Positions 3,019-5,120 of a DNA stretch of 39,915 bases are shown here, piece by piece. Positions within the stretch are counted from its first letter, which is position 1; the number at the start of each line of letters is the position of its first letter. The notes beneath the pieces were generated by a model. The model had not been told where the DNA came from. It did not search any database and saw nothing but the letters and a program-made list of their open reading frames with translations. This DNA is from Sulfurimonas sp. (GTDB lineage Bacteria; Campylobacterota; Campylobacteria; Campylobacterales; Sulfurimonadaceae): NCBI GenBank assembly GCA_027060825.1, contig JALSWC010000202.1, positions 1 to 39,915 of the forward strand, written 5' to 3'. The translations under genes and the position numbers were made by a program.

Positions 3019-4662
3019 ATGGCAAAAGAGATAATTTTTTCAGATAATGCTAGAAATCAATTGGCACGCGGAGTTGAAAAACTTACAGATGCAGTAAAAG
3101 TAACAATGGGACCTCGTGGTCGTAATGTACTCATCCAAAAAAGTTACGGTGCACCTGTCATTACAAAAGATGGTGTTTCTGTTGCTCGTGAAGTAGAATT
3201 AAAAGATAAACTTGAAGATATGGGTGCACAACTTGTAAAAGAAGTGGCATCAAATACGGCTGATGAAGCAGGTGACGGTACTACAACAGCAACTGTTCTT
3301 GCAAATGCAATCTTTAGTGAAGGTCTTAGAAATATTACAGCAGGGGCAAATCCTGTTGAAGTAAAACGAGGTATGGACAAAGCATGTGAGATTATACAAG
3401 CAAATCTAAAATCTGCTTCTAAAGCAATTAAAGATAAAAATGAGATAGCACAAGTGGCAACTATTTCTGCAAACTCTGATGCTGAAATTGGTAATATGAT
3501 AGCAGAAGCGATGGAAAAAGTTGGTCAAGACGGTGTTATTACTGTTGAAGAGGCAAAAGGTATTGCTGATGAGCTTGATGTCGTTGAAGGGATGCAATTT
3601 GACCGTGGATATTTGAGTCCATACTTCATTACAAATACAGAAAAAATGACTGCTGAAATTGAAAATCCTTGGATTCTTTTAGTAGATAGTAAAATCAACT
3701 CTCTCAAAGATTTACTTCCAGTTTTAGAGCAAGTACAAAAGACAAATCGTCCATTGCTTATCATTGCTGAAGATGTTGAGGGTGAAGCACTTTCTACTCT
3801 TGTTGTAAACAAACTCCGTGGTGTGCTTAACATTTCTGCTGTAAAAGCTCCAGGGTTTGGTGACAGAAGAAAAGCAATGCTTCAAGACATCGCAATTTTA
3901 ACTGCGGGTACTGTTATATCTGAAGAGACAGGACACACACTCGAAGCAGCTGAAATAGCTATGCTCGGACAAGCTTCTCGTGTAGTAATCGACAAAGACA
4001 ACACTGTTATTGTAAACGGTGCAGGAACTGAAGATACAGTTAAAGCAAGAATTTCTGAAATCAAAACACAGATAGAAGCAACTTCAAGTGAATATGACAA
4101 AGAAAAACTTCAAGAGCGTCTTGCAAAACTTAGTGGTGGTGTAGCTGTCATTAAAGTTGGTGCTGCGACTGAAACTGAAATGAAAGAGAAAAAAGACCGT
4201 GTTGATGATGCACTTTCTGCGACAAAAGCCGCTGTTGAAGAGGGAATTGTCATCGGTGGTGGAGCTGCACTTGTTCGTGCTGCTGCAAAAGTTACTACTG
4301 ATGATTTAGAAGGTGACCAAAAAATCGGTGCTGAAATAATTCTTCGCGCTGTAAAAGCACCTGTAAAACAGATAGCAGAAAACGCAGGATTTGACACAGG
4401 TGTGGTAGTAAATGCAATAGAAAATGCAACAAGTGAGACTATTGGTTTTGATGCTGCAACTGGTGAATATGTGGATATGTTTGAAGCAGGCATCATTGAC
4501 CCACTCAAAGTTGAGCGTGTTGCACTTACAAATGCAACATCAGTTTCAAGCCTACTCCTTACAACTGAAGCTGCAATCTATGAAATACCAAAAGAAGAAA
4601 CTACCGCACCAGACATGGGTGGAATGCCTCCACAAATGGGTGGAATGCCAGGTATGATGTGA
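3019..4662 (+). CDS. groEL: Chaperonin GroEL
   Basis: [46 protein letters not shown] through the [14 protein letters not shown] tail. Confidence 0.99.
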
Positions 4663-4672
4663 GACCCGTAAA

Positions 4673-4698
4673 AAAAACGAGAATTTCTTCTCGTTTTT
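4673..4698 (+). terminator. Rho-independent terminator after groEL
   Basis: AAAAACGAGAA-TTTC-TTCTCGTTTTT, 11-bp stem ending in a T run. Confidence 0.85.
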
Positions 4699-4803
4699 AG
4701 GGTCGGAACCGCAGACATTGTCCGAAGGACTGTCGAGGACTCTACCTTTTTAGGGTCGGAACCGTAAGTGATGCACGAAGCACCACTGAGGACTCTACCT
4801 TTT
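4698..4803. repeat. Tandem duplication of a 53-bp hairpin element (4698-4750 and 4751-4803)
   Basis: Both units begin TAGGGTCGGAACCG and end GAGGACTCTACCTTTT. The central hairpins diverge but preserve outer pairing. Confidence 0.9.
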
Positions 4804-4874: not shown

Positions 4875-5120
4875 ATGAAGATTGAAAATCCTTTTGAATC
4901 TGGACATATAAAAAATTATATTTTATTATATGTAAGTGTTATTGTTATTGTAGTGCTATTTTTTCTAGCAACTACCCTCTTTGACAATGACCAAAAACAG
5001 ATAGAAAAAAAATCTTTTGATGTCAATACTACTCTTATAAAAGAGCAGAAGAAAATAGAGTTAGAAAAACAAAAAGAGAGAACAAAACCGCGCTTTAAGC
5101 TTTTAAATAAAGCTTATTAA
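4875..5120 (+). CDS. Small hypothetical membrane protein (one TM helix plus charged C-terminus)
   Basis: 81 aa; TM YILLYVSVIVIVVLFFLATTLF followed by a K/E-rich segment. No family recognised. Confidence 0.55.
   Translation: MKIENPFESGHIKNYILLYVSVIVIVVLFFLATTLFDNDQKQIEKKSFDVNTTLIKEQKKIELEKQKERTKPRFKLLNKAY

Follow-up and report, generated by a model that had tools for sequence, protein, structure and literature searches.

The window (the whole stretch of 39,915 nucleotides of contig JALSWC010000202.1, from a Sulfurimonas sp., that was analysed) probably contains, behind groEL, one complete and one partial copy of a non-coding, non-autonomous repeat of about 83 nt which is dispersed among the Campylobacterales. 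Directly supported by the comparisons described here are the shared anatomy of the copies, the covariation of their helices, their presence at many unrelated loci, their overlap with stop codons and the turnover of the arrays that they form.

The groEL reading frame (3019-4662, plus strand) ends in TGA at 4660-4662 and is followed by two head-to-tail direct repeats of 53 bp (4698-4750 and 4751-4803; spacing 53), whose overall identity is 75%, the ends being constant and the middle diverged: unit 1 carries GACA..TGTC (4714-4717/4731-4734) where unit 2 carries AGTG..CACT (4767-4770/4784-4787), and the CGAAG apex is common to both. The tandem units, the compensatory stem changes and the shared apex had been recognised in a first-pass annotation of this DNA and are borne out; the boundaries given there have to be redrawn (see Table 1), since the element starts not at 4698 and includes the terminator-like hairpin, beginning at the groEL stop codon itself, and the outer stem proposed as AGGGTC/GACTCT is replaced by the pairing of GGGTC with an upstream GACCC, an arm of 5 bp which is 96.4% paired over 33 loci and shows double changes at 5/5 pairs. 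The partial copy consists of CTTTTTAGGGTC, corresponding to the last bases of hairpin 1, followed by a diverged second copy of hairpin 2 (4758-4794). The apical stem of the latter reads GCAC/GCAC and is decayed, which is why unit 2, whose inner stem had been interpreted as a minus-strand wobble helix, pairs only by wobble on that strand; in the nearest named relative, a Sulfurimonas MAG (L007), the fourth repeat (GGAACCGCAAGTGATGTGCGAAGCACCACTGAGGACT) is unit 2 with the intact apical stem GTGC/GCAC, and the first repeat has the same 37-nt core as unit 1. Units 1 and 2 are two old subtypes and not one unit diverging after duplication.

Table 1. Features of the element behind groEL, in window coordinates.
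Feature	Position	Strand	Basis
Complete copy of the element, both hairpins, 83 nt	4659..4741	+	Match to model R2, 99.9 bits (one of the 33 training rows of R2)
TGA: groEL stop codon and conserved left end of the element (RTGA)	4660..4662	+	groEL reading frame
5' outer arm GACCC	4663..4667	+	Pairs with 4700-4704
GTAAAA, counterpart of the conserved GTWAAR joint	4668..4673	+	Column conservation
Hairpin 1, AAAACGAGAA-TTTC-TTCTCGTTTT, terminator-like	4674..4697	+	Covariation, 10/10 pairs doubly changed
3' outer arm GGGTC	4700..4704	+	Pairs with 4663-4667
Hairpin 2 copy 1, GGAACCGCA-[GACA]-TT-[GTCC]-GAA-[GGAC][TGTC]-GAGGACT	4705..4741	+	R1, 60.3 bits (training member of R1)
Second, partial copy	about 4746..4794	+	Direct repeat; R1, 54.1 bits; R2 match 4749-4794

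Hairpin 1 is flanked by an A-tract on one side and a T-tract on the other, and combines a 10-bp stem, kept by covariation, with T5 at 4694-4698; it may act as a terminator. A consensus terminator scan did not call it, the stem having too few G-C pairs. Directly downstream of the element lies a reading frame of 81 aa (4875-5120, plus strand) with no Pfam match; its start is conserved 3' of groEL in relatives (L055, L340, L344), and it is probably a real small gene. Elsewhere in the window, at 1643-2171 on the minus strand, Pfam identifies a gene pair composed of a YafQ-like toxin and a RelB-like antitoxin.

Folding of the single sequences is not decisive, unit 1 being not beyond chance (z -0.92) and unit 2 modestly so (z -2.15 on the plus and -2.55 on the minus strand), so that the claim of a conserved structure rests on comparative evidence. 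First copies aligned from five families of the order yield the composite consensus RTGA - N5 - GTWAAR - hairpin 1 - TAG - N5' - GGAACC-RNA - hairpin 2 - GARGRCT, and the matching relatives give for hairpin 2 GGAACCRYA-stem1-WT-stem2-GAA-stem2'-stem1'-GAGGACT, with a conserved WT bulge and an apex that is usually GAA. In the relatives, the 5' arm of the terminator-like hairpin begins immediately after the TGA, and the first copy of hairpin 2 follows directly 3' of its 3' arm. Among the unpaired positions the TGA (33/33 aligned copies), the T of GTW, the TA, GGAACC/GAAACC, the T of the bulge and GARGRCT are invariant or nearly so.

The suggestion of the first-pass annotation that this is a structured element is right, and its covariation is strong. 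Both sides change in six out of ten pairs of hairpin 2 alone (12 sequences) and in 21 of the 22 pairs of the composite; in the training alignment of 33 sequences 95.3% of the cells pair, falling below 48% when the partner is slid by 1-3 columns, and the covariation score of the composite is 0.61, whereas shuffles score 0.19 and slid controls no more than 0.105. Without prompting, RNAalifold recovers the arm, hairpin 1 and stem 1; in 99 distinct non-training copies, whose alignment was fitted to the plus-strand model, the share of pairs kept is 94.0% for the arm, 99.1% for hairpin 1 and 94.9% for hairpin 2. The transcribed strand, formerly described as ambiguous, leans towards plus: over the pooled helices of the same 99 copies G.U outnumbers A.C by 38 to 20 (p = 0.012), a mild preference which does not settle the matter, as the rows are not independent and a plus-strand model lies behind the alignment. 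Covariation alone, moreover, does not distinguish RNA hairpins from DNA hairpins.

None of the outcomes that the first-pass annotation named as refuting it was encountered, in that relatives hold many further copies, the stems covary and Rfam offers no match; a relationship to REP elements may still hold. Of 136 genomes of the window's genus, 43 have hairpin 2 according to model R1 (1-5 matches each), as do 23 of 300 genomes of the order, including other families. The composite model R2 has matches in 16 of 41 relatives and, at E <= 1e-5, in 87 of 398 genomes and 37 of 68 genera of a sample of the phylum, all of them belonging to the window's own order. Up to 12 copies per genome were found with R2 in the phylum sample, such counts being lower bounds, with 11 candidates scored per genome; two hairpin-2 copies are present in the window's own genome. 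The order-wide consensus gave no match in phage and plasmid collections, and exact-pattern matches in Streptomyces, Micromonospora, Nocardia and a deltaproteobacterium are presumed to be due to chance. At the gathering score Rfam reports only two tRNAs in the window and nothing for the element, and lax scans of the groEL locus and of ten related loci returned chance-level matches only, consistent with the earlier statement that no named riboswitch or ribozyme is recognisable here. Integron attC and hammerhead-like readings were dropped, their defining boxes being absent as a set, and a CRISPR-like reading of the 53-bp units is out, the variable middle being a covarying hairpin.

The left end of the element is closely associated with the ends of genes. 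Among the 82 copies with enough flank, 52 have a frame of at least 60 codons ending within -12..+20 of the left end, which holds for 7.1% of points placed at random in these loci; in 41/82 copies the frame is stopped by the TGA of the element itself, and the codon preceding the stop is ATG in 25 and TGG in 6 out of 40. Within the genus, groEL stops at TGA in 10/10 genes with a clear element (type A) and in 0/49 genes without it (41 TAA, 8 called TAG), a comparison restricted to clear type A and 'none' genes. The ten element-bearing genes may go back to one ancestral insertion and so do not count as ten independent events. Behind groEL there are also sister forms of hairpin 2, namely type B (GCACCARA..GGCGGAG.CC; L016, L024, L082, L088, L090) and type C (GAATCAA..GCGAAGGACC; L091, L098, L100); they share the AT bulge and are found mostly behind a TAA stop.

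At the groEL locus itself the number of units changes among close relatives: G146 (groEL identity 93%) has hairpin 1 and half of hairpin 2 only, the window has one full copy and one hairpin 2, and G203 (97%) has at least three. Several arrays (L057, L058, L061, L076, L100) have as their last unit one that breaks off close to the hairpin 2 apex. In the complete genome G211, a repeat of 19 to 125 bp ends exactly at the left end of the element and recurs rightward; the longest of these stretches includes part of an earlier element copy (L297), and for this reason they are taken to be tandem duplications with one end at the element. In the same genome truncated copies of a tRNA 3' end, of the start of a peroxiredoxin-like gene and of an rRNA leader motif stop exactly at the left end of the element, the intact version lying to the right (L209, L210, L211, L212, L215-L217). 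First copies of arrays, where seen, read ...TCGGAACC (L057 (1649), L058 (1580), L061 (1501), L066, L015), whereas in several separate lineages the later copies, where hairpin 1 is retained, read ...CCCAACC; a single apparent first copy, at L166, has CC.

The range of sites occupied is wide. Upstream of hisF the element lies right at parS GTTTCACGTGAAAC in several species, and does so once more in a different family (L312); upstream of dnaA it lies beside TTATTCACA, a DnaA-box-like motif; it is also found between tRNA-Asn genes and beside tRNA fragments, in or adjoining CRISPR repeats (L145, L187, L200) and, at L304, in frame inside an open frame. Two copies lie between genes of operons which, from their sequence, we take to be grpE-dnaK (L270) and rpsG-fusA (L224). 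Presence and absence differ among related species at both groEL and hisF, the hisF site being empty in G232, G053, G117 and the window's own genome (L106, L107, L108, L115). The 5' arm often includes host sequence, of which the 3' arm is the complement; examples are the AAC of parS, the stop region of nusG (L221) and that of a fabG-like gene (L214). Possible reasons are template switching by which hairpins become perfect, selection favouring a longer stem of the terminator, and target recognition through pairing. Simple insertion of a fixed sequence does not account for the part of the 5' arm that looks native at parS and near dnaA. Larger structures were also observed: in G389 and G466 (L317-L330) the element lies within a repeat of ~200 bp with inverted ends GGTTTCACTCGAT..ATCGAGTGAAACC, present in several copies per genome, and within and beside CRISPR arrays of G223 (L187, L200, L225) it extends rightward into a longer tail, rich in hairpins and shared by these copies (TTTTTCAAT..CCTGCCAGG..), which may represent an extended form of the element.

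As to how the copies reached these sites, we infer that the element arrived as a non-autonomous mobile element. Insertion would split a stop codon between T and RA, chiefly behind an ATG codon, and the element's own GA would rebuild the stop as TGA; hairpin 1 would then serve as the 3' end of the host transcript, so that the insertion might be harmless or even useful, and the second unit would have arisen through local tandem duplication. Because the hairpin is bulged, a single-strand hairpin route, by analogy with REP elements and IS200/IS605, is a natural candidate for the movement. The copies examined for a clean insertion flanked by a consistent target duplication yielded none: in 20 copies of G418, G359 and G369 flanking repeats were no stronger than in shuffled controls, and G211 alone had direct repeats that touch the left end, tandem duplication (L297) being likelier there than an ordinary target duplication. 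A more specific proposal, which we consider doubtful and advance tentatively, is that of a class of elements that insert into stop codons (chiefly between ATGT and RA), rebuild the stop with their GA, bring their own terminator hairpin and at each site acquire a 3' arm complementary to the 5' flank; if true, this acquired complementarity would imply either targeting by base pairing or an insertion mechanism that copies the hairpin.

Different explanations of the same observations have to be weighed against that of a dispersed mobile element. The copies might represent a functional RNA, i.e. a conserved 3' module of terminator and bulged hairpin that protects or regulates the preceding mRNA, or else a small RNA or protein sponge, retained by selection wherever it is of use; the covariation of all the helices around joints, bulge and apex that stay, the excess of G.U on the plus strand, the apparently high expression of many hosts (presumably groEL, the dnaK operon, rpsG, nusG, fabG and rRNA leaders, as judged from sequence) and the two copies between operon genes all speak for it. 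We nevertheless judge it unlikely, given that no copy is detected in most genomes of the genus, that there are further copies located in CRISPR repeats, next to tRNA fragments and within a frame, that none was found in trans to a promoter, and that the covariation fits DNA hairpins equally well; the stand-alone small RNA or aptamer once suggested for the 53-bp units gains no support from the analysis. Very improbable, at the other extreme, is that nothing mobile is involved, and that ordinary terminators are alike by descent and multiplied in tandem through replication slippage: the arrays clearly vary through tandem duplication, and groEL genes of several genera and families have the element behind them (L143, L271), but most groEL genes of the genus are without it, and one and the same 83-nt composite, its invariant joints unchanged, recurs at unrelated genes, tRNAs, parS and CRISPR repeats.

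The nearest known kind is that of the REP/BIME/REPIN sequences moved by the single-strand transposase TnpA-REP (RAYT), which are likewise small structured repeats in gene ends, with an imperfect hairpin carrying a conserved bulge and with copies clustered in small arrays. REPs can supply stop codons to flanking ORFs, according to two sources (PMC3733652, PMC8266576), the former of which names TAG stop codons and also reports GTAG and CGTC repeats in Sulfurovum NBC37-1; in the literature searched, no description of the present element in Campylobacterota was found, although the GTAG family of Sulfurovum may correspond to it. Y1-domain genes occur in 27 of 60 relatives, and the conserved WT bulge may correspond to the bulge needed for TnpA-REP cleavage. 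That the element is a true REP family moved by a RAYT is, all the same, improbable. In contrast to REPs, it is a two-hairpin composite, the first hairpin being terminator-like and the left end being TGA; where a REP has GTAG or another tetranucleotide directly before a palindrome of 20-50 nt, the stem of hairpin 2 is preceded by GGAACC-RNA (alignment A4), and the conserved TAG is found ~14 nt further upstream, at the base of hairpin 1; and, instead of hundreds of copies per genome, there are two in its own genome and up to 12 elsewhere, as a lower bound. Nor was a single-copy transposase gene flanked by the repeats found in the scanned Y1 loci: neither R1 nor R2 has a match in the roughly 1.5 kb on either side of the Y1 genes examined. 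Of 20 genomes selected because they carry the element, 9 lack a hit to the Y1 transposase (PF01797), including four single-contig ones, so that several element-bearing complete genomes are without it. Neither a transposase nor any other mover could be linked to the element, and a Y1 transposase in that role is unsupported, its presence not tracking that of the element. Of the REP-like palindromic element put forward in the first-pass annotation, what stands, by analogy, is a hairpin dispersed in gene ends that would work as a REP-type element does; that it is a REP, with tag, copy number and linked transposase, does not stand on the sequences compared, the GTAG family of Sulfurovum NBC37-1 entering the comparison by description only.

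Other families of small repeats resemble the element in part. Rickettsia palindromic elements, as described in PMC3733652, are small palindromic repeats, some of them in frame in coding sequence, and L304 is a case of this kind; most copies of the element, however, sit exactly on a stop codon, and sequence and architecture differ, as far as the description of the Rickettsia elements allows them to be set apart. MITEs and non-autonomous elements derived from IS200/IS605 are non-coding, hairpin-bearing and dispersed as well, and the copies of G389 and G466 lie inside a larger repeat with inverted ends; the 83-nt element itself shows neither terminal inverted repeats nor a consistent short target duplication, and no parental element was found for it. 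Group IIC introns associate with intrinsic terminators at the ends of genes, whereas the element brings a terminator-like hairpin of its own.

If the reading of a dispersed, non-autonomous element is right, many Campylobacterales harbour an apparently uncatalogued sequence that redefines the ends of genes, supplying both stop codon and terminator; the differences in groEL stop codons among relatives and the fast-changing arrays behind groEL and other genes would come from it, the annotation of gene ends and of operons would be affected (as at the grpE/dnaK and rpsG/fusA copies), and the testable question would be raised of how a DNA element lands precisely on stop codons.
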